This document shows positions 5,034-64,000 of a stretch of 64,000 bases of DNA, one piece after another (position 1 is the stretch's first letter; the number at the start of each line of letters is the position of its first letter). The notes under the pieces are model-generated. The model was not told where the DNA came from and did no database searches. It saw nothing but the letters and a program-made list of their open reading frames with translations. Source of the DNA: Tubiluchus corallicola (Eukaryota > Priapulida > Priapulimorpha > Priapulimorphida > Tubiluchidae); assembly GCA_030141605.1 (NCBI GenBank), contig JAQGDQ010000019.1, positions 558,001 through 622,000 on the forward strand. Reading direction: 5' to 3'. The translations under genes were made by a program, and so were the position numbers.

Positions 5034-48792
<43,759 letters not shown>

Positions 48793-52504: not shown

Positions 52505-52628
52505 TCATGCCACTAAAATTTGCCAGATTTCCACTTCGCCGTCAATTCGTATGTATCTCAGTTGGCACGGATGTTGGAAGCGATGAGCAAACGAAACAAA
52601 GTATCTGCCATTGACACCGACGTCGAAC
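52505..52628 (-). CDS. Galectin 1 (of pair) exon 5
   Basis: Enters in phase 2 (acceptor TACCAG|GTTCGACG). Encodes FDVGVNGRYFVSFAHRFQHP and then CQLRYIRIDGEVEIWQILVA, then TGA. It matches the end of a galectin fold (F.V.VNG..F..F.HR). It was found by requiring a phase-2 acceptor downstream of exon 4. Confidence 0.88.
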
Positions 52629-55600
52629 CTGGTAGCAAAAAAGAAGTACACTGTAAACAAAAACGCAACCGTTGCAATCTTCTTGCTCTCTTTTACAAAA
52701 TAGTGGGGATGTTGAAAATGATGAGATCAACGCTCGATCTAAATTATCATTAGTTAGAACTCTAGATCATAACCATTGTTTGGAAATGAGTCTCGATCTC
52801 GACTTCAGTTTCGATCTAAGGCCCATTTCACAGTGAGAACGCAAGGAAAATTGCGCAAGGAATTGCTGTCAGAAAATTTTCATAAAATTTCCGATTTTTC
52901 CTCGAAATCCCATACAGCAAGAAAGCTCAGTGCACAGTGAAACCCCGCCGTTTTTTCCACGCGTCCAGTTAGCTGCAGCAACTTTGCGGGTGTCAAGCAT
53001 AAGCTTTTTCTCGTCAACATGGACAACAAAGACGACGTCATGTTGTTAAAGAGTACTTATTATTATTACAATAGTATTAATTACCGTCGTTACTCGGTGC
53101 AATAAGTTAATGACACAAGACAGCACGGTGGTGGCGCTGCATCCTTGCATTTGAAAGACGGTCGTTGTTGCATTAATAAAATTGTCTGTCTTTGAAAAGA
53201 GAGATTAAATCTTAAAAGTTTTGTACTGAAATGTGTTAATTGTTGTTCGTTAAACAATAAAAAGTAATTGAGCAGTTAAATTTAATCTGAATTCCCTCAC
53301 AAAAATGGTGAACATGCATTATTTCTAAAAAGCTGCAATTTTCCTCGTGAGGCGGTCGCATAGCGAGGCGTCACTGAGAAGTGCGCCGTAGAAAATATTG
53401 TGTTCCATTTTCGTGAGGGATGCCGCATGAAATTTTTCCTGGAGGCATTTTGCTGCGCATCCTCACTGTGAAATGGGCCTAACAGTTACTTTGGATCTTA
53501 AGATGCGCACATACGACGTGCGAAGCATTATCTAGTTATTAATAAAATTATGTACTGACCTCTGTTTCTTGGTTAATTGTTTACTGTTTGAAAAAATAAT
53601 AATCCAATTTGAATAATTTGATAATAATCCAAAGAATGATGAGCGCAGCTTTTCTTATTGTATATTCTAGAACAAATGCAAACTCAGATTTACCCGCTAT
53701 TTGTTACTTTAATCTTTATCATGAAAAGTTGGCCCGGTTTGAAGGGGAAATAGGAAGCGCTCCTCTCCTCTGAGCCCCAATCAGCGCCTAATCTGGCATT
53801 CCTGACTACGATCTTCTCATCAAAGCGAGGGTTAAAGTGAAAGGCGATCGTGTTAGTTGGACTCTTGGGTCCTACTTGAATATTGATGAAAAATCTGTAA
53901 AATAAAAAAGTAAGAGTTCCACATCTCCAAATTATTAGCGAAACAACTTTGCGGGCACATTATCAATTCTTGTCAAGAAGTTTAGTCAAGAAACATCGTA
54001 CAGGAATTCGAATTAGCCAATTTCCCAATTTTTTTTTACAATTCACAATTATTAACTGCTAAAATAAACCGAAACCTTCAAATATCTGACTAAAATCGTA
54101 CACGTCTTAGACCGTCAATTGAATTCCCTGAAGATTTTTAAACCTTGCAGACCTCGTAGAATCCGTATATAGCTTTAGGCTGAAATTGTAATAATTGCCG
54201 CTGAAAGGTGAACAAATCTTCAACAGCGTTTAGGTTTGCATCTGTAGTTGAGAGGGACTCTAACCGCGAGATAAAAATTTTTCAATTTCCAATTTTTTAA
54301 TATTTGCTGGCTTGCAAGAACTTGTAAAACTGCCATTTAAATCGAAATGTTTGTGTACGCTGAGGTTGAGCCATTTGATAGACGGAGATTGCGTCGAAGA
54401 CAAAAAACAGAGTATTCTAATGCACCAATGTCCGGCGCACGCGCAGCAGTTAATAGAATATAATGCACACCACGCTATGCGCTACATTACTTTATGCTTG
54501 AAAAATCAGTAATCAACATGAGATTAGGAATCCATTCAATGCTGCAGTGCTAACGACATGCCAACAACTTGTTAGACTTTACCAGTCTAAAACAATACTC
54601 AAGCAACCGTACTACATAATAAAACATTACAAGTTTGCAGTATTAAAACACGCTCTGATGTAAGCCTAGTAAAAGGAATTATTAATGTATTTATTAGTGT
54701 CCGTATCCCATCCTGACGCAAAATCTAGTGGCACTGTCCTTTTTAGTGCAACACTGTGTGGTGGCGAATCAACTTGTGGTGCAACAGTCCACGTGTAGTG
54801 CAACACTATTGTGGAGGACTTTTACTGTAGTTACTGTAGTGTGTAATTCAAGTTTACTTTGACACGCAGCTTTTATACAAATCCAGTTGAGATTCGAAAA
54901 AAGGAATAGTGGTGCACCAGTACCCAGAGTTTATGTGAATTATGTGTAGAAAGACAACGACCTAAGAAATCAACATTATTTCATTTTGACTTTAGCGAAT
55001 AAAATTAACAAAAATTTAAAAATGCTCGTTGTCAAACGTATGTAAAGTCTCACCCATAACGGCCTGGGTTTTCAGATGGTCGTCCCAAGAAGTAAACTGC
55101 TTTTCCTGAGCAAAATCCATTTTGGGTTTGCGTTTCGAAGGGAAGGCCTGGCATCAATGCTGATTCTCTGACCTATAATTTATGTAAATATATTTTAATT
55201 GATAGTTTATGCATAGGCGATCAATATATCCAGCAAGGCAAAAACCAAGTTGTGTTGGCTATCGCTTATATGTGCATTCTCACAGGCATAGGATGCCTGC
55301 TTCTTTATTTGACGAAGAATATTTTGAAGCTATCCTTGGTTGTGACGGCTTCACATGTGTTCTACTGACTTAGTCTTGCAATAGCTGCGATATGTTAACT
55401 TCACACATTTTCGGAAACTATAGGGTCTTATAATCGGCGTACATTTTAATTAGCAATAATTACCATAATGTAGTAGAAAGAACTAAAAAGTGTTGGAAGA
55501 CTTGTGGAGGTGGGACCACTTTAAGAGATACAGGAAATTGGACTATGAAAAAATATGGAAAAAGACTAGTAGAGGTGAGGAACAGCATCCAAAGACGCGT

Positions 55601-57253
55601 GGAACTGTGTACGGAAAACAACCAAAGTCTAGTTTATAATTCAACACGCCCATCTTTCCTGCAATGGCGAACGTTTTGAAATACAGGCGTAACTTCACAG
55701 CTACGGTCGCTTTTATCGTTTTGGTATTTTTAGTTTGCAATCACCCGTTCATTTACTTTATGGCAATTTGTAATCTAATTGTCACTTGTATTTTTTGCGA
55801 CATAAAGTCAAAAAATCCAACGCGATCTTATTAATATACCTACCAGTACCAAACCGAATGTACTACAACAATTAAAACAGTGACCAACTCCAGCCAACTT
55901 AATTTAACCACTTCGAAAAACACACTACTCTGGCTGTAGTTGACGCTGGTCAAAAAGGGCTTGAGCATTTTTGAAACAGAACGTAAAATTGTTTAGTCAA
56001 CATATTCGTATGATTTCGCCAGGAAAACAATGAAATGACTCTTTTACAAGAAATGTTAGTTTTAGATGTAATTACATATACCTGCCAGTTGAGAAATTGC
56101 TCAAACACATTTCTAGGTATCGTATCTCCATCTTCTAGGGAATTATAGACAGTGGATGAAAACTCGGCATCATCGCTTTCTACGTGTTGATCAGATGGTA
56201 CCAAGTGAACAGCTGGATAAGATAATACAAAGAAGTGCGCTACAGGATGACAAACAACAGGAAAACTGGCAGAGCTGTTATTCGCGTAAAAAAGGGACGT
56301 ATACGTGCAATTTACGTGATACGAATAGCAGTTCATTTATTGAGTTAATCGCTTGCTAATTTATTCGATCTATAAATGGTTTGTTTCACCGTGATACTTT
56401 TCTCTTTCTCGTTGTTCAGTTTGTGTAATAAGATTTTATCAGTTTTTTAGTACTATGGCATCGTACAATTTTTTTTATAAAACAGACACATGGCAACGAA
56501 TAATAGTATTCTAAATGACATCCATGTAGTTGAGCAGAAAACTCAACAAGTTTTACGTTCCGGACTAGTTTTCTTTTCGTAAAGTGGGCCTATAAGTTGC
56601 AAGTGCGATTGTAAAGAATGAGCGGAATTTGTTAGGTATTTGATACTTTAAAGGGGGAGCGCGTTGACGGTCCAAGGTTCTTAAATTACCCTTTCTTTAA
56701 TAACCAAAGCCGAAAAAGCGTGAGTAAAATGAGAAGCATGTTTATAGGCAGAATACCGTACTTACATGTGTTTTAAATTGCCAAAAATTGCAATGTTTGC
56801 AAACACAAACAACATTAATAACAGTGCAACAAACAAACAATATTAATTAACGTGAGTATAAGCATTGATCAAAACTAATATATCAGTAAACCGTCTAACG
56901 TGGGTAATGCTCTGTGCTCTAAGACACAGTATCTACATATTACCAACGATTTAGTTTGGCAGAAGGCTTTTATAACATACGATATTCATAATATCTAAAA
57001 ATAAGTTAGGTACAAGTTTAAGATCACCCATGTCATGCAAGGTCAAATCTACCCATGAATGCGGCTTCAACGTGTTTAAAATCGCGACTGTTTTACACTT
57101 GCAACAGTTCGCGACAGCGAAAACTTAGCCGGTGAAAGAAACAAAAAATAGCTAGATTACATTTATAGAGAAATCTTTGCCATCAAACTTACCTGGTAAA
57201 GGCCATGCAATAACAGTCACTACAAGAAAGGAAAACACCACTAAAACATTCAT
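52505..57253 (-). CDS. Secreted-type galectin, first of tandem pair (5 exons)
   Basis: A beta-galactoside-binding lectin of 211 aa. Exons in transcript order: 57193-57253, 56082-56212, 55054-55172, 53694-53894, 52505-52628. They sum to 636 nt, in frame at every junction (phases 1, 0, 2, 2). Residues 1-16 form a signal peptide (MNVLVVFSFLVVTVIA, cleavage likely after VIA). Residues 17-64 are an acidic lead-in. The galectin domain spans about 70-211. Sugar-binding residues are all present: His123, Asn125, Arg127 (HFNPRF), Asn136, Trp143, Glu146, Arg148 (WGSEER). The final exon gives FDVGVNGRYFVSFAHRF and ends soon after strand F1, with no tail. Intron 4 carries a MITE. Classical galectins lack a signal peptide and leave the cell by a non-ER route, so this leader is notable. 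Family call is firm; secretion and ligand are inference. Confidence 0.9.
52629..53693 (-). other. Galectin 1 (of pair) intron 4
   Basis: 1065 bp, of which 661 bp is the MITE at 52820-53480. The rest is AT-rich. Confidence 0.85.
52820..53480. mobile_element. PIF/Harbinger-type MITE
   Basis: Terminal inverted repeats GGCCCATTTCACAGTGAG (left) and its complement at the right end are flanked by TAA on both sides (52817-52819 and 53481-53483). TIRs starting GGCC with a 3-bp TWA duplication point to the PIF/Harbinger group. The 661 bp hold no transposase. Subterminal AATTTTTCCT-like motifs recur in inverted orientation. Confidence 0.8.
53694..53894 (-). CDS. Galectin 1 (of pair) exon 4: sugar-binding core
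   Basis: 201 nt, from acceptor TTTTACAG to donor AGCGG|GTAAAT. Encodes FFINIQVGPKSPTNTIAFHF, then NPRFDEKIVVRNARLGADWG and SEER...FPFKPGQLFMIKI. It contains the full galectin signature. Confidence 0.94.
53895..55053 (-). other. Galectin 1 (of pair) intron 3
   Basis: About 1.16 kb, AT-rich. Around 54700-54850 there are weakly repeated TAGTGCAACACT-like phrases. No other gene was seen. Confidence 0.75.
55054..55172 (-). CDS. Galectin 1 (of pair) exon 3: CRD first strands
   Basis: Phase 0 in (AAATTATAG|GTCAGA), phase 2 out (ATGG|GTGAGA). Encodes ALMPGLPFETQTQNGF and then KAVYFLGRPSENPGRY. It aligns with exon 3 of the neighbour, including the shared NPG-x-YG end. Confidence 0.87.
55173..56081 (-). 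other. Galectin 1 (of pair) intron 2
   Basis: About 910 bp of AT-rich intron; nothing recognised. Confidence 0.8.
56082..56212 (-). CDS. Galectin 1 (of pair) exon 2: acidic lead-in
   Basis: Phase 1 in (TATCCAG|CTGTTC), phase 0 out (TGGCAG|GTATAT). Encodes VHLVPSDQHVESDDAEFSST then VYNSLEDGDTIPRNVFEQFL. It is rich in Asp/Glu, with no known domain. Chosen because phases match exon 2 of the paralogue. Confidence 0.78.
56213..57192 (-). other. Galectin 1 (of pair) intron 1
   Basis: About 980 bp, AT-rich; nothing recognised. Confidence 0.8.
57193..57253 (-). CDS. Galectin 1 (of pair) exon 1: signal peptide
   Basis: Encodes MNVLVVFSFLVVTVIAWPLP plus one base, then donor CCAG|GTAAGT. The long hydrophobic core with VIA before Trp is a typical signal peptide. 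Confidence 0.82.
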
Positions 57254-58679
57254 TTTCTCTTCGCGTTTTGTAAATGCGTTTTCTCTTAATAAGCGCCAAG
57301 ACGTGTGTTTACAATATTTGCAATATCGGGATGCCTTTAAACTTGCTGAATGCATATAATAAATTAATAAATTTTACCCTGGCCAACACCTGTTTTGGAT
57401 GTCTTCTTGCGTTACACGTCCCGGATACAGAGCTGTTACTTTATAGGCTGGGATGTTGTTGTTTTGTTTGTTTGGAAAGGTGTAGCACAAAAGTCGAGAA
57501 GACAAGGATGCAGTATGCTTGCTTTATCGAATTAATTTAGCGTCTTTAAAAGTACCAAGTACAACACTTGCAAAGTTCAAATAATGACATCTGTCATGAT
57601 CTGTGAATCGTTGTGCGTTTGGACTCTACAGTATATTCTAAGATGTCCATATAACATGCCCACCAAATAAATATCTACATGTTGTAAACAAAGGACTTGA
57701 CTAAGCAAAAGACACCAAAATGACACTTAGCCAATGCAAAACGCAGAGGTGATACTGAGAATTTATTGCCATTTGTTAAATGTACGGGAACGAATATTAT
57801 TATTTGGTCATATTTTAATACACATACGTGCTTTGCGTATAGCTGCTAGCGATTTCATGAATGTTTTTCTTTGGCTATAGAAAATACAAAATCGCCTGGA
57901 TAAATACCCAAACTTTGTCATAACTATAATGATATGTTGAAAAGCATACGTAATAGCCATACATCATCTATGCATAGAAACAAGGAGTTAAAAACGGAAA
58001 ATAGATGAACTAAGCAATTATATGACCACGATAAAACGGAAAACACGCGCATTAATACTGACAAAAACTAATTACGTAACTCTAATTATGCAAATCCTTA
58101 TTAATTTGCGTTTATTAGAACAGTTTTAAAATCAGATACTCGTTGGTGCACATTGATTCACACAAAAGTAACACACTTAACCAGTATTTATTCGAGTGCA
58201 GGTGTTTGCATTTTTAATCGGTATCAATAGCAGTATGAAATATTATTATAAGCTTATAGTCAGAATAGAGGGTGGCCGTTCACGTATTATACGCGATTGC
58301 ACTTGATTATATCTCTGAAACAAAATTTTATCAAATATATTTTAGGTTCTATAGATCGGTCACATAATATAAACTCCTTTTCAATGCACCATGAAATGAG
58401 TTTAATATTTATAACCAATTAGTACACTATGAATAGCTTTACATATTACATATTACTTGTTAACCGAATGAAACTATTCATAGCAAAAACTACAAAATCA
58501 ATGACTTGAACATTGAATTTCAGTGAGGTTAAGCAGCTACTAAAATTATTTCTTGCTTATGGAGTTCATTCTAGTGTATGAAGCCTAGCATATAGCCTGA
58601 GTAATCTCATGTAAAATGAATCCCATCAAAAATTTCTTTTGACGTTTGTTTTACATTTTAAATTTTGTGTTAAAGATGA
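57254..58679. other. Intergenic region between the two galectin genes
   Basis: About 1.4 kb between the start codon of one gene and the stop codon of the next, on the same strand. It must contain the promoter of the downstream gene and the 3'UTR of the upstream one. No core promoter motif or AATAAA could be assigned with confidence. Confidence 0.7.
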
Positions 58680-58872
58680 TCACTTGTCGCCTTTCCCTTC
58701 CGTTTTTTCTTCCACTCTTGTCTCGTCTTCCTCTCTACCTATAGGTGGACCATACTGAATGTATTTGTGAATGACCACATCGCCAGACATACGAATGACA
58801 AGGATGTCACATATGGGCGTGAACCGATACTGATAATCTATGAAGTGGTTTCCATCTATCGCGACAGAAAAC
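58680..58872 (-). CDS. Galectin 2 (of pair) exon 5 and charged tail
   Basis: Phase 2 in (GTTGCAG|GTTTTC). Encodes FSVAIDGNHFIDYQYRFTPI, then CDILVIRMSGDVVIHKYIQY and a Glu/Lys-rich tail ending EGKGDK, then TGA. Confidence 0.92.
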
Positions 58873-61800
58873 CTGCAACAGACGGAAATATACATAAGTT
58901 TTATAAGTTCATTAATAATTGTACAGTTGATATGTCTTGTAAAAAATATTAATATGTGTCGTATCGCACATGACGCAACCCATTATTAAGGGAAACATAA
59001 CTGGCAGCCTGATATCATCGATAATTTTTGTAGACATCGTAACCCAAACAGAATTACACAGGACTTGTCGAAAACAGTCTGGTACCAAACTAGTATTCAA
59101 ACGATCAAACACAGTGGCCACATTTGCTTTTTGATGGGAGATTACCTCACGTTAAAAGACACGATTTAAAAACACGATACCTCTAACAGGACAGATTTCA
59201 GACAGTCAAGAAATTTTTACCCATGTAAGTTGGTCCCTGTAAAGAATCAACAACTATCTGACTCACTGCAAAACAACGAAATAGTGATTCATTGCTTGCT
59301 GATTCATTTTCGGCTTTAAAGCGCTTTATACCTGTGGATCATTAAGGGGCTGTGCAAATAAGCCTTTTCAAGGTTAATAGGCTACCATACTTCTTCCTTA
59401 TCTCTGCAGATCTTTCCACGGTCTTACGTACTTGTCCTCAAGCATGTCAATTTCCAATACAAATTCCTGTCCCGGTTCGAATGGAAACCACATAGCCTGT
59501 CTCTCTTCAGGACCCCATTCTGGACCTAGACGTGAATTTCGCACTGTGATGCGCTCCTCGAATCGAGGATTAAAGTGAAATGCAATAGTGTTGTCAGGAG
59601 ACTTGTTGTCAACTTGAAAGTTAATGAAGAACCTGAAAGATTTATACTTGTAAATATATATTAGCACGTACATATTCACATACACTGTCGCGCACATGTA
59701 TGCACCATAATACACCTAAAACAGTCACATATATTACCAAATAAATAGCCTGCTGGAACGAGTGCGCAAGGCCACTTTGAGAGGTTAGAGAAAAACAAAA
59801 TTTGTTCTTTGATTTTGAGTATTATTATTTTTTCAAATAAAACATACCTCAGACAGTCCCGAGATGGATCATTTTGTTTGTTTACTTTATTTATTTATTT
59901 ATTTATTTTTAAAACCAAAGTCTTCGTGCGCTTATTTTAAAAAATCACTTGAGAACAGACTTTTGCAAAAAGCATTAATGAGCCACCTTTGTATTTTCCG
60001 TCACTTTTAATTATAATTTTAATGTAATGTCATTAAATGAGGTTAAGTAATGACAAATTCTAAAACTTGATGCATTGTTTAAATTTAGCAAGTTGGACTC
60101 TGCGTTTTTGCGTGTGGCGCGATGATATGCTTGTCTTTTATATGGTTTCAGAGGAGACTTCCCAACTTCTACACACAGAAATATAAAGAAGTGATTAGTA
60201 TGTCCTACTGGTCTGAAATTCGCTAAAATGTGACTTAGGTGCCTGCTCCAGCATGCAGGCTTTTCAATTATTACAGACAAAAATAACGAAGTTTTAAGAT
60301 ACATCATTTCAATACGATACCTAATAGATGGGATGTGAATTACAATGTATCTAGACACTTCTGCAGCGTGTCAAACCGCAAATGATTCAATTCCTGTACT
60401 TTTTTACTAATGTAGTTAGTGATTCTGTACTTCTGCATTTCTCCCTTATGTTCTTTCTGCTGTGCTTTAATATGTACTTGTATCCTTTTCAGTGTGATCA
60501 TTTTTATGCGTTAATAATATAAACTAAAAACGCCAAAAAAATTAGTGAAGTAGTTCCTTGTAATTTTTTTCTCTTTTTGTGCACCCGAAGAATTACAGTG
60601 CTAGTTCGAAACGTTGTATCGTTTCTCTTTTTCCTTGTTTTTAAATTGTGGGATTTTATATTCATTCCCACTGTTTATTCAGATAGAACTTAGAATGACT
60701 GTGTAATTATAATTTCAGCGTAATTTTCGCATTTTACATAATTATTATTATATACACTGTTTCAAATATTCGCTATACGTATACTCACATACAATTACAT
60801 ACTCATGGTGAGTAGATAGTGTGCATCAAAATTACTCCCTCTGCCTATTTGTGTTTAGTTGACCAAACAGTGTATGATCATATTGATCTTGTATGAATTT
60901 ATATGAGCTAAAAATCTTCAGAGACAGTGGTATACTAATAATAAATTTAAAAAATTATTAAAGCAAAGGTTATCCAGAAATATTAAATGCGATAAGCAAG
61001 GATGGTTCTGCGTAATATACTGATCATGAATGTGTTGGCCTAAAATTATTAATTGCGCAATTCGATTTAAAGTTATAGCAAAAATAGGTACCTACCCATA
61101 AAATCCTGGATTTTATGGGTATACTAATAATAAATTTAAAAAATTATTAAAGCAAAGGTTATCCAGAAATATTAAATGCGATAAGCAAGGATGGTTCTGC
61201 GTAATATACTGATCATGAATGTGTTGGCCTAAAATTATTAATTGCGCAATTCGATTTAAAGTTATAGCAAAAATAGGTACCTACCCATAAAATCCTGGAT
61301 TGTCGACCACTCTGCCTTCAAAGTAAAACGTCGTACCCTCCTTTCCGCCTCCATAAATTTCATGTTCATGAGGGAGATCTGGATTACTCAAAGGCGGAAT
61401 CGGGTACATAGGCCTCTGTAAATGCGTGCAAGTAAAGTCACAATGAATTTGTGTATAACAATGCTAATATTGTGTCATTTTGATTATTAAAATTTCGTTC
61501 TGTATGGGTAAACCTTATCCACAAATAACTGTTCCATAACCCCATACACGAAATCTTTAAAATAGTAAGCTGTGTAAAAATTTATAAACCACAAAAGCTT
61601 TCACTTTGCTTATACAAGTAAGCGCCTCATACTTACTACAGATTTCAACTTCTCATCGTAAACGTAAGCAACGACGTCTGCTAGATCATACGCCTCAGCT
61701 ATAAGAGATGAAATCGAAACTATAAATTATTTATATTGCAATTATGAAACCAATTTAAGTACTAATTGTAGTTAATAATTATTATTACTTCTAACTCAAT

Positions 61801-62871
61801 ACGCACGTTTTGCTTTATGGACTGCTTATTCATTTATTTTTGGAGTGCCATTTTACAAACAGTACAAGTGTTTACATGGTGTCACAAAGACTAATTATCG
61901 TCAATGATGAATTAAAGCTTGCTTCTAAAATACTTTCGAAACAAATAGCACATCCCAGAAAAGTAAGTCTATTATTCTTGCGAGCTTTCTTGATACCAAC
62001 GTTAAATTTATTCAGATTTAACTTGTAACATAATGAAGCGAACTAAAAATATAACTTTTAAAAATATTGGATGCTGTTTAATGTACGCGGGTTATAGCAT
62101 GGCTCAGTCAAAGCGTTTTCTCACAATAAGCTCCAAAATTAATCTTCAGAAATGTTTGCGTTTCATACAACTTATGATGCTCGTTTCCCTGTCTACAAAA
62201 TAGTGGACCCACAGAAACTAGTGCAGTTTTGAAAACACGCATAGTACCGGCACCTGCTCTACATGCATGCATAGTACGGGCACCAGCTCTACGAGCACGC
62301 AAAGTACGGGCACCAGCTCTACATGCATGCATAGTACGGGCACCAGCTCTACGAGCACGCAAAGTACGGGCACCAGCTCTACATGCACGCATAATACGGG
62401 CACCAGCTCTACGTGCACGCATAATACGGGCACCAGCTCTACGTGCACGCATAGTACGGATACCAGCTCTACCTGCACGCATAATAAGGGCACCAGCTCT
62501 ACGTGCACTAACGTTATGATACAATTAACAAAAAGTTACATTGGAACTCGCTGAAATTTTTTGATGCTTACATGTACATGTATTATCGAAATATTTTTGC
62601 AAATAAACTATTATAAGAATTCAGTGTGGTTATTTTACCTCTAATCAGACAAGGGTGGGCCAGGAACGTCTAAGACGCAATACGCGTGTAATAATTAGGA
62701 CTAATAACTAGACTAGCAATAGAAGAATATAACGCGTTATTTTTTCTTTATTTTTATTTGTGATAAACTAATGCAAAAATACTGATACTCACACTCTATC
62801 TCTTTTCTTGTTACTGGCTTAGCCGAAGTTAAAGCAATAGCAGCCAATACGACAACCCATTGAAGTTTCAT
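58680..62871 (-). CDS. Secreted-type galectin, second of tandem pair (5 exons)
   Basis: A beta-galactoside-binding lectin of 221 aa. Exons in transcript order: 62793-62871, 61637-61698, 61285-61415, 59432-59632, 58680-58872. They sum to 666 nt, in frame at every junction (phases 1, 0, 2, 2). Residues 1-17 form a signal peptide (MKLQWVVVLAAIALTSA, then KP). Residues 18-60 are a charged lead-in with a TRK site. The galectin domain spans about 70-200. Binding residues His110, Asn112, Arg114, Asn123, Trp130, Glu133 and Arg135 are all kept (HFNPRF, WGPEER). After the fold comes a charged tail (GREEDETRVEEKTEGKGDK) absent from the neighbour. Exon 4 leaves at AA|GTACGT, because the tempting GTAAGA 4 bp later breaks frame. 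A tandem duplication copies the exon 3 donor. Secretion and ligand are inference. Confidence 0.91.
58873..59431 (-). other. Galectin 2 (of pair) intron 4
   Basis: About 560 bp; nothing recognised. The equivalent intron of the paralogue holds a MITE, which is absent here. Confidence 0.85.
59432..59632 (-). CDS. Galectin 2 (of pair) exon 4: sugar-binding core
   Basis: 201 nt, the same length as the paralogue's exon 4. Encodes FFINFQVDNKSPDNTIAFHF, then NPRFEERITVRNSRLGPEWG and PEER...FPFEPGQEFVLEI. The acceptor is TCTTTCAG. Confidence 0.96.
60929..61112. repeat. 184-bp tandem duplication, copy in intron
   Basis: Near-identical to 61118-61301 at an offset of 189 bp. Its distal end copies the last bases of galectin exon 3 and its splice donor. 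Confidence 0.93.
61103..61127. repeat. Inverted repeat at the duplication junction
   Basis: CCCATAAAATCC and GGATTTTATGGG face each other with one base between them, exactly where the two copies meet (about 61096-61119). Confidence 0.85.
61118..61301. repeat. 184-bp tandem duplication, copy overlapping exon 3 donor
   Basis: The second copy. It includes the genuine 3' end of galectin exon 3 (61285-61301) and the GTAGGT donor. Confidence 0.93.
61285..61415 (-). CDS. Galectin 2 (of pair) exon 3: CRD first strands
   Basis: Phase 0 in (TTTACAG|AGGCCT), phase 2 out (TATGG|GTAGGT). Encodes RPMYPIPPLSNPDLPHEHEI, then GTTFYFEGRVVDNPGFY. Confidence 0.93.
61637..61698 (-). CDS. Galectin 2 (of pair) exon 2: lead-in
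   Basis: Phase 1 in (CTTATAG|CTGAGG), phase 0 out (TCTGTA|GTAAGT). Encodes EAYDLADVVAYVYDEKLKSV. No domain is known. Confidence 0.85.
61699..62792 (-). other. Galectin 2 (of pair) intron 1
   Basis: About 1.1 kb, including the 30-bp minisatellite at 62243-62512. The remainder is AT-rich. Confidence 0.85.
62243..62512. repeat. 30-bp minisatellite, about 9 copies
   Basis: The unit is of the form ACGGGCACCAGCTCTAC followed by a variable 13 bp (GAGCACGCAAAGT, ATGCATGCATAGT, GTGCACGCATAAT). Two unit variants alternate in the first half, suggesting an earlier 60-bp higher-order unit. The length is a multiple of three, so several frames on both strands stay open. These are repeat artefacts inside an intron. 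Confidence 0.95.
62793..62871 (-). CDS. Galectin 2 (of pair) exon 1: signal peptide
   Basis: Encodes MKLQWVVVLAAIALTSAKPV then TRKEIE plus one base. The donor is GAGT|GTGAGT. It has a clear n-, h- and c-region, with TSA before Lys-Pro. Confidence 0.87.
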
Positions 62872-63960
62872 ATTTTCATCCAAACAGTCACTTACAAATG
62901 GGCAAATACTTATTGCTATTGGTACAGTTAGGATCGTCAGAATATGCCGAGACCGAAATGGAACTCCTTCAAAAACTTTCTCTTATTTTATGAGTGATAC
63001 TTTGCTGATTAAAAACATAATTATCTAACACTGTCTTTAAACACCTGCTAGATTCACATGCCTCATATCATTTTTCATGTCGGACTATGTGAAAATAGGG
63101 GGTTGTTGGTTACTAAACATACAAGACATATCCTAAGTATGACATAAGAAGCTTGTACACTAATAATGTTTCGCGGCTGGTCTTGGCATAATCCCTCAAA
63201 TATGTAGTACAAACAACTGTGCAATTTTTGCAACCTGCTAAACACAAAACGTGTAGTTTTTACAAGATTAATTATCTCGAATGTGTAATTTACCAAATTC
63301 GTCATCTCAGATGCATAATTTCCAAAAATGTACATTCACTCTTCAATGCTATACTGTTGTGTTATGCTAATAACTGAAACCGCTAAAATGCGAGACTGTT
63401 AGGGGAATAACATAGATTCAAATTCTGTGGGCGTACGGCTGTATCTGAACTGTGGGAAACAACAAAGAAGAAATACAAAGCCCAGAAGATTACGGCTGCG
63501 TCACTATGCAATTCAAATGCAGACTACCTTACAAAGCTTCCGAATCAGTTATGTGGTTCTTTCACATTTGCTATCTTTGTTAATGCATGCATATTACATG
63601 CAAATATTGCCACGTGCCTCAAGCACAAAAAAACGTTCATTAAGTAATGAAGCGATACTGTGTATAAAACTAGCTGCCTAATAGTATAGCAGTTATTAAA
63701 AAGTTAAATCACAATAAATATAATTGTATAATTTCATATTTTAATAACATCTTCATTCATGATCGGTTATAACATTTTATAATGCACAAAAACACTGTAT
63801 TAAAGAAATTATAATCGCAATGCTACTTTTAAGTACAAAATGACATTCACACAGTCAGACAAACACACCTAATACTCTAACAACAAATCTTAACTTTTAG
63901 AATTCACCTTGTAACTGATATCAATTACACACACAGATAATTTAGAAATCTACTACAGTT
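62872..63960. other. Region upstream of galectin 2 (of pair)
   Basis: About 1.1 kb that should contain the promoter of the minus-strand galectin. I could not identify a TATA box or other element with confidence. A plus open frame at 63427-63681 has no recognised domain. Confidence 0.6.
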
Positions 63961-64000
63961 CTATACATCATAATCATCATCTTCAGTGACTGCTTGCTTT
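63961..64000 (-). CDS. Possible C-terminal fragment of another minus-strand gene
   Basis: The minus frame running off the window end reads KQAVTEDDDYDV and a TAG stop. The acidic ending and same-strand position next to the galectins suggest the tail of a further gene. Forty bases are too few to be sure. Confidence 0.2.
   Translation of the reverse strand, partial: KQAVTEDDDYDV

Follow-up and report, generated by a model that had tools for sequence, protein, structure and literature searches.

Background

Galectins are the textbook example of proteins that are exported from cells without a signal peptide, and the locus described here raises the question of whether a lineage of bilaterian animals has nonetheless routed members of this family through the endoplasmic reticulum (ER). 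The locus lies in a window of 64,000 nucleotides from the priapulid Tubiluchus corallicola (GenBank assembly GCA_030141605.1, contig JAQGDQ010000019.1, referred to below as C1477, positions 558001-622000), in which two neighbouring galectin genes, A and B, each begin with an exon that encodes a hydrophobic leader. We consider it very likely that A and B encode proto-type galectins, i.e., galectins with a single carbohydrate-recognition domain (CRD), which carry a cleavable signal peptide, are secreted via the ER, retain the canonical ligand pocket and belong to a monophyletic family of leader-bearing galectins. The part of this conclusion that rests on sequence comprises the leaders themselves, the frame in which they are spliced, the intact pocket, a common exon plan, paralogs in which a leader is followed by a PAN/apple-like stretch in exon 1, and the clade that the family forms. 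The genome searched is a 343.5 Mb assembly in 2344 contigs. In this assembly, a match to the microRNA let-7 exceeds its cut-off (62.5 bits, cut-off 53.5), one to bantam falls short of its own (55.9 bits, cut-off 61; E 1.2e-8), and a COX1 search gave no match; as markers of these groups, the two microRNA matches indicate a bilaterian and probably a protostome.

A tandem pair of galectin genes

Genes A and B are arranged head to tail on the minus strand, with a spacing of ~1.4 kb between the stop of A and the start of B, and each consists of five exons (Table 1) that together encode predicted products of 221 aa (A) and 211 aa (B). The introns of the pair have GT-AG boundaries in 8 of 8 cases, and the order of their phases is 1-0-2-2 in each gene. 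Both gene models and this phase pattern had been put forward in an original prediction made from the letters of the window, and they hold to the base, with each leader joining in frame to one complete galectin domain; a caveat is that an alternative donor of A exon 2 would remove one Val from the product.

The galectin domain is matched by the PF00337 profile with 104.1 bits in A and 115.9 bits in B (the curated cut-off is 22.1), as a single stretch per protein and not in the two-CRD plan of the tandem-repeat galectins. The eight ligand residues of galectins (H-N-R-V-N-W-E-R), as listed in PMC5297725, can all be aligned in A and likewise in B, in keeping with the earlier description of all binding residues as intact. 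The two CRDs share 50% identity over 138 aa, and the closest solved structure for both is that of galectin-9 (3wv6; E 1e-33 for A and 3.3e-35 for B). The CRDs of human galectin-9 and galectin-8, which are not known to carry leaders, are the best solved sequence relatives of the pair; the human galectins are of the tandem-repeat type, whereas A and B have a single CRD. Cysteines are few (only Cys179 in A; Cys85 and Cys192 in B), as are N-glycosylation sequons, of which A has one of poor quality (NKSP) and B none. The charged C-terminal tail of A, GREEDETRVEEKTEGKGDK, is absent from all seven of the paralogs that were aligned (see below). A match of B to a viral polymerase family (E 0.15) was taken as chance. 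With a predicted signal peptide and a single CRD, A and B conform to the leader-bearing proto-type plan of the sponge hRTL proteins, and the predicted leader in exon 1 sets them apart from classical galectins, which are defined in part by having no signal peptide.

The predicted leaders

Scored with a von Heijne matrix, the leader of A reaches 9.69, with cleavage predicted after Ala17, and that of B reaches 7.15, with cleavage predicted after Ala16. The same matrix gives 9.99, 6.85 and 10.36 for the N-termini of albumin, insulin and lysozyme, respectively, as positive controls, and -1.72, -0.41 and -6.22 for galectin-1, galectin-3 and GAPDH as negative controls. Leaders of this kind could also act as uncleaved signal anchors, which would make A and B type II membrane proteins with the CRD outside the cell. 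The hydrophobic core of B is strong (mean Kyte-Doolittle hydropathy 3.04), and gene B has an upstream in-frame ATG at 57355 from which the n-region would grow by 34 residues; however, the cores are short, the small residues at -3/-1 of the predicted sites (TSA/K in A and VIA/W in B) favour cleavage, and gene A offers no further in-frame ATG between its exon-1 start and the upstream stop at 62985. We regard membrane anchoring as quite improbable.

It could also be argued that the leaders are chance hydrophobic pieces of open reading frame that were chosen only because they lie upstream of a galectin domain. Leader-like phase-1 first exons do occur elsewhere in the window when a loose threshold is applied: of the six rows obtained (three per strand), two are the galectin exons themselves, and the remaining four belong to three further places, spread over both strands. 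When the minus strand is shuffled (n=20), however, a mean of only 0.3 such exons per 64 kb is obtained, the stricter threshold used for the family scan described below produced one spare match in 11 scans (at C1927), and the leaders of the paralogs are homologous and partly constrained. Chance leaders were rejected on the basis of the shuffles and of the scan upstream of conventional galectins, and we hold this explanation to be highly improbable.

A family of leader-bearing galectins

In the genome as a whole, the PF00337 profile finds at least 17 exon matches on at least 10 contigs, and a search with protein A finds at least 31 matches. A-like loci, of which nine were counted besides A and B, were read from the DNA at C150a, C150b, C1731, C1927, C1965a, C335, C457 and C864, and further A-like pieces are C864n, which consists of a first and a second exon, and C1965b, which is assigned by position only. 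Complete five-exon models with the phases of A and B could be assembled for C150b (273 aa) and C1927 (269 aa). The second exon of C150b, C1927 and C1965a, DPADVIVYDEKLESN (with small changes in C1965a), lies upstream of exon 3 and is homologous to exon 2 of A, DLADVVAYVYDEKLKSV, with which it agrees in position, phase and coding content. Exon 3 of C864 is spread over two frames and there is a frame shift within exon 1 of C864n, such that both look like decaying copies.

For eight anchors of the family and for conventional galectins of the same genome, a stretch of at most 6 kb upstream was scanned for leaders in each of the three phases, with the same settings throughout. A phase-1 leader-like first exon was detected at 6 of the 8 family anchors (A, B, C150a, C150b, C1927 and C1731), and upstream of the conventional galectins C1525, C1243 and C1477d the scan returned none (0/3). 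This recurrence of first-exon leaders across the family, with none at the conventional galectins in the same scan, lends sequence support to the original prediction that the lineage has ER-routed galectins, and the ER routing of A and B can be regarded as well supported at that level.

In a tree of 16 rows, the nine aligned family members (A, B and seven paralogs) are set apart from the other rows by a branch with 98/98 support; B is tentatively placed outside the other eight (88/96). The family is also distinguished by the intron that precedes strand F4 of the CRD, which is in phase 2 in its members; in C1243 and in the first CRDs of C1525 and C1477d, this intron lies some two codons further on and is in phase 0, and the second CRD of C1525 appears to differ again. 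A classification of this intron as the short S3-F3 type was dropped, since no more than about two codons separate the end of exon 4 from the phase-0 boundary seen in the three conventional CRDs. The leader exon, the linker exon and the intron position go together, which most likely reflects a single origin that predates the divergence of A, B and the PAN-like members. Conventional galectins with apparently two CRDs each are located at C1477:798-802 kb (L021/L022), ~180 kb from the A/B pair, and at C1525:312-324 kb (L019/L020).

The family data also bear on whether the functional form of these proteins might be a leaderless galectin that starts at a Met in exon 3 (residue 50 of A and residue 71 of B), with the upstream exons being minor, alternative or non-coding. 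Such a Met stands where the CRD begins in A and in B alike, and the Met-Tyr at this place is conserved in A and in the five paralogs with an aligned exon 3. The codons in question have no purine at -3, though, whereas the exon-1 ATGs of A and B have A there; exons 1 and 2 have an open frame, join in phase and recur in the paralogs, where their coding content is conserved; and the scan revealed no upstream exon of this kind at the conventional galectins. A leaderless start as the functional form appears improbable to us.

A number of points weigh against the assignment of A, B and their paralogs to a leader-bearing, ER-routed family. A start of B at 57355 could turn its leader into a signal anchor, and a leaderless start at the internal Met codons is possible, in contexts that are the weaker ones. 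C150a, C150b and C1927 have one and the same leader over 22 aa, so that the independent cases of a leader are four at most. The exon-1 donor in these same three loci was picked by comparison with C1731, and another phase-1 donor is possible. Exon 2 of C1731 was not found between its exons 1 and 3, and for C150a the search recovered exons 1, 4 and 5 only, exon 1 being separated from exon 4 by a gap of 2,500 bases, so that leader and CRD are linked in both loci by position only. The scan gave no leader for C335, where the stretch includes an assembly gap of 2,500 N, or for the frame-shifted C864, and a separate scan gave none for C1965a or C457, which lie 834 and 6,726 bases, respectively, from a contig end. 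Finally, the first exons of C1525, C1243 and C1477d were not identified, which means that the control result is a lack of a match.

With these points taken into account, A and B are real and coding and, as far as sequence can tell, most likely secreted. Their leaders would direct co-translational entry into the ER and would be cleaved off, and the remainder would fold as a single CRD and be released through the ordinary secretory pathway as a soluble extracellular lectin. The intact pocket suggests that both proteins may bind beta-galactosides outside the cell, where they could serve in the recognition or cross-linking of extracellular glycans. A use in mucus or immunity, as raised earlier for this pair, is speculation.

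Paralogs with a cysteine-rich first exon and altered pockets

The first exon is long in C150a, C150b, C1927 and C1731, in which the leader is followed by ~80 residues with the core C-x3-C-x5-C-x13-C. The leader reads MDWSKFQSSIFLIVLYPWLSLA in C150a, C150b and C1927 and MAWSRFDSRFLLTVGCVWLSLA in C1731, with 55% identity between the two versions, and in all four of these intact copies exon 1 encodes five Cys after the leader. When three of the exons were scanned against Pfam, that of C1927 matched PAN_4 (E 0.019, 15.4 bits with a cut-off of 27) and PAN_1 (E 0.17), both under the curated cut-offs, that of C150b gave a weak CRF-BP_C match only (E 0.074), and that of C1731 gave no PAN match in the Pfam scan and no match in PDB. 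As the PAN matches are sub-threshold and confined to one of the three exons, we refer to the domain as PAN/apple-like rather than PAN. A PAN-galectin architecture is probable for these paralogs; around A and B, no match to a PAN-like exon was found in the window and 10 kb on each side. The original prediction had also anticipated consequences for disulphide formation and glycosylation, and these would be small for A and B, with one or two Cys and one poor sequon between them, and are more plausible for the PAN-like paralogs, with five Cys in exon 1 and two or three sequons in the complete models (C150b and C1927).

The pocket of the paralogs has changed as well. In an alignment of A, B and seven paralogs (C864 and C1965b being left out), the number of ligand residues kept, out of eight, is 8 in C457, where the pocket is complete despite a 3-residue insert before the Trp, 7 in C150a, 6 in C150b, 4 in C1965a, 3 in C1927, 3 in C335 and 2 in C1731. 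Losses have thus occurred in 6 of the 7 aligned paralogs, which keep 2 to 7 of the 8 residues.

Selection on the coding sequence

The ratio of nonsynonymous to synonymous substitution rates (dN/dS) between A and each of the seven paralogs is 0.20-0.31 over the last two exons, from which A can be recognized as a constrained coding sequence; between A and B the silent sites are saturated. In exon 1, the ratio is 0.48 for C150b and C1731 and 0.75 for C150b and C1927. Close pairs of paralogs have higher values, namely 1.08 for C150a/C150b, 1.29 for C1927/C1965a and 1.85 for C1731/C335. When these three pairs are pooled, the ratio of nonsynonymous to synonymous proportions of differences (pN/pS) in exon 4, which carries the pocket, is 1.89 (one-sided Fisher p 0.029, uncorrected for the number of exons tried), with two of the three pairs above 1 and C150a/C150b below (pN 0.071, pS 0.092). 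The corresponding values are 1.34 for exon 3 (p 0.32, two pairs) and 0.74 for exon 5 (p 0.80), and exons 4 and 5 together give p 0.14. These figures are only suggestive of positive selection on exon 4 of the paralogs, and relaxed constraint would be an equally good reading of the ratios. The 5' flanks of C150b and C1965a are 96% alike, as compared to 75% for intron 3 and 80% for intron 4, from which it appears that parts of these genes have different histories.

A broader evolutionary scenario, which we offer tentatively and think rather unlikely to hold in full, is that a galectin branch moved into the secretory pathway once, that part of it was fused to a PAN/apple-like domain, and that its pocket exon has been diversifying under positive selection. 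The dispersed paralogs would then have lost the binding of ordinary beta-galactosides and would act in recognition as secreted proteins, with A and B having kept the ancestral pocket.

Relationship to other galectins with and without leaders

As a rule, the absence of a signal peptide from classical galectins, on which the original prediction had leaned, stands: galectin leaders are described as uncommon (PMC13084444), bilaterian galectins, if secreted, are said in a 2023 paper to use an unconventional pathway (PMC10343441), deuterostome and bivalve galectins are typically without signal peptides (PMC10343441), and leaders are lacking in CvGal1 (PMC7053492), in the galectins of 12 fig wasps (PMC8702095) and in those of rotifers, with lophotrochozoan galectins being generally of the tandem-repeat type (PMC8878817). 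What does not stand is the novelty of an exception, as leaders have already been reported in sponges and nematodes and the principle is therefore known.

The hRTLs of the sponge Chondrilla australiensis have a 23-aa leader whose cleavage was shown by Edman degradation (PMC11433124), and hRTL-P1 and -P2 have canonical ligand residues (PMC13084444), as do A and B. In contrast to these proteins, for which no added domain is mentioned in the passages cited, A and B have a leader that is predicted and five exons that include an extra linker exon. Three galectins of another sponge, Amphimedon queenslandica, resemble A and B in having a single CRD and a predicted Sec/SPI signal peptide, but the sponge genes consist of one exon (PMC10343441). 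Among protostomes, PMC11433124 cites six leader-bearing galectins in C. elegans and eleven in Strongyloides ratti, which are likened here to A and B by description and not by sequence. The snail Biomphalaria has a plasma protein of the galectin-related VIgL group, GREP, in which immunoglobulin superfamily (IgSF) domains are combined with a galectin domain that varies in its pocket residues (PMC5433772; PMC9334734), and the PAN-like paralogs, with an extra domain and a variable pocket of their own, may work in a similar way outside the cell. The partner domain differs, as Pfam scans of A, B and the first exons of three paralogs brought up no Ig family. No fusion of a galectin with a PAN or apple domain and a signal peptide was among the matches listed in the open-licence literature, as judged by title and the opening of the abstract.

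The A/B pair by itself is less new than first thought, and the picture that emerges from the whole genome is larger; what is new here is a leader-bearing family, a probable PAN-galectin architecture and pockets that are degenerating. A whole clade of bilaterian galectins with predicted leaders, alongside galectins for which none was detected, would place the same fold in both export routes in one animal. It would thereby become possible to test why galectins avoid the ER, with clear predictions as to cysteines, sequons and the residues of the pocket. The loss of pocket residues in PAN-like paralogs suggests, at the level of sequence, that galectins may have been recruited for recognition as secreted proteins, and if fusion and pocket diversification are both true, these paralogs would parallel GREP of the snail, though with another partner domain.

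Other features of the galectin loci and the window

In Table 1, we have listed the exons of A and B together with the arrays of a 46-47 bp tandem repeat that lies at or past the last galectin exon in four paralogs. The repeat unit corresponds to the last stretch of coding sequence (IHxYIQYGPPV plus stop), and its stop sits in a donor-like GTAAGAG. Units are present after C150a and C864 as well, and gene A has one unit, without such a stop.

Table 1. Exons of galectin genes A and B (window coordinates) and repeat arrays at four paralogs (coordinates within the locus named)
Feature	Position	Strand	Content
A exon 1	62793..62871	-	leader MKLQWVVVLAAIALTSA/KPVTRKEIE; donor phase 1
A exon 2	61637..61698	-	linker EAYDLADVVAYVYDEKLKSV (also quoted as DLADVVAYVYDEKLKSV); phase 1 to 0
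A exon 3	61285..61415	-	galectin CRD begins; phase 0 to 2
A exon 4	59432..59632	-	CRD core: HFNPR, VRN, WGPEER; phase 2 to 2
A exon 5	58680..58872	-	CRD end and charged C-terminal tail GREEDETRVEEKTEGKGDK
B exon 1	57193..57253	-	leader MNVLVVFSFLVVTVIA/WPLP; donor phase 1
B exon 2	56082..56212	-	acidic linker; phase 1 to 0
B exon 3	55054..55172	-	galectin CRD begins; phase 0 to 2
B exon 4	53694..53894	-	CRD core: HFNPR, VRN, WGSEER; phase 2 to 2
B exon 5	52505..52628	-	CRD end, then stop
46-47 bp repeat, C1965a	L034 5334-5442, 6193-6447, 7221-8161		three arrays, listed as 20.4 + 5.5 + 2.3 copies
46-47 bp repeat, C1927	L032 1283-2620		28.9 copies
46-47 bp repeat, C1731	L036 6444-7212		16.4 copies, running to contig end
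46-47 bp repeat, C335	L037 4386-5619		26.4 copies

Within gene A, an exact 189-bp tandem duplication at 60929-61301, with two copies that are 100% alike, repeats the 3' end of exon 3 including its donor, and a TAG is met immediately when the sequence is read beyond the first donor. This duplication is either very recent, polymorphic or an error of assembly. Intron 1 of A contains a 30-bp minisatellite (62236-62508, 9.1 copies) that yields long open frames by chance.

Elsewhere in the window, which was not subjected to a full gene search, no other genes stood out beyond simple repeats and a retrotransposon reverse-transcriptase-like protein, recognized by eye, at 35109-37721 on the plus strand, where two adjoining open stretches of one frame are separated by a stop. 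A possible end of another coding exon (KQAVTEDDDYDV followed by a stop) was also noted by eye at 63961-63999 on the minus strand. The simple repeats include a long pentanucleotide array of the TCTCA/CCTGT type at 13835-14349, and (CA)n and (GA)n tracts occur at other places in the window.

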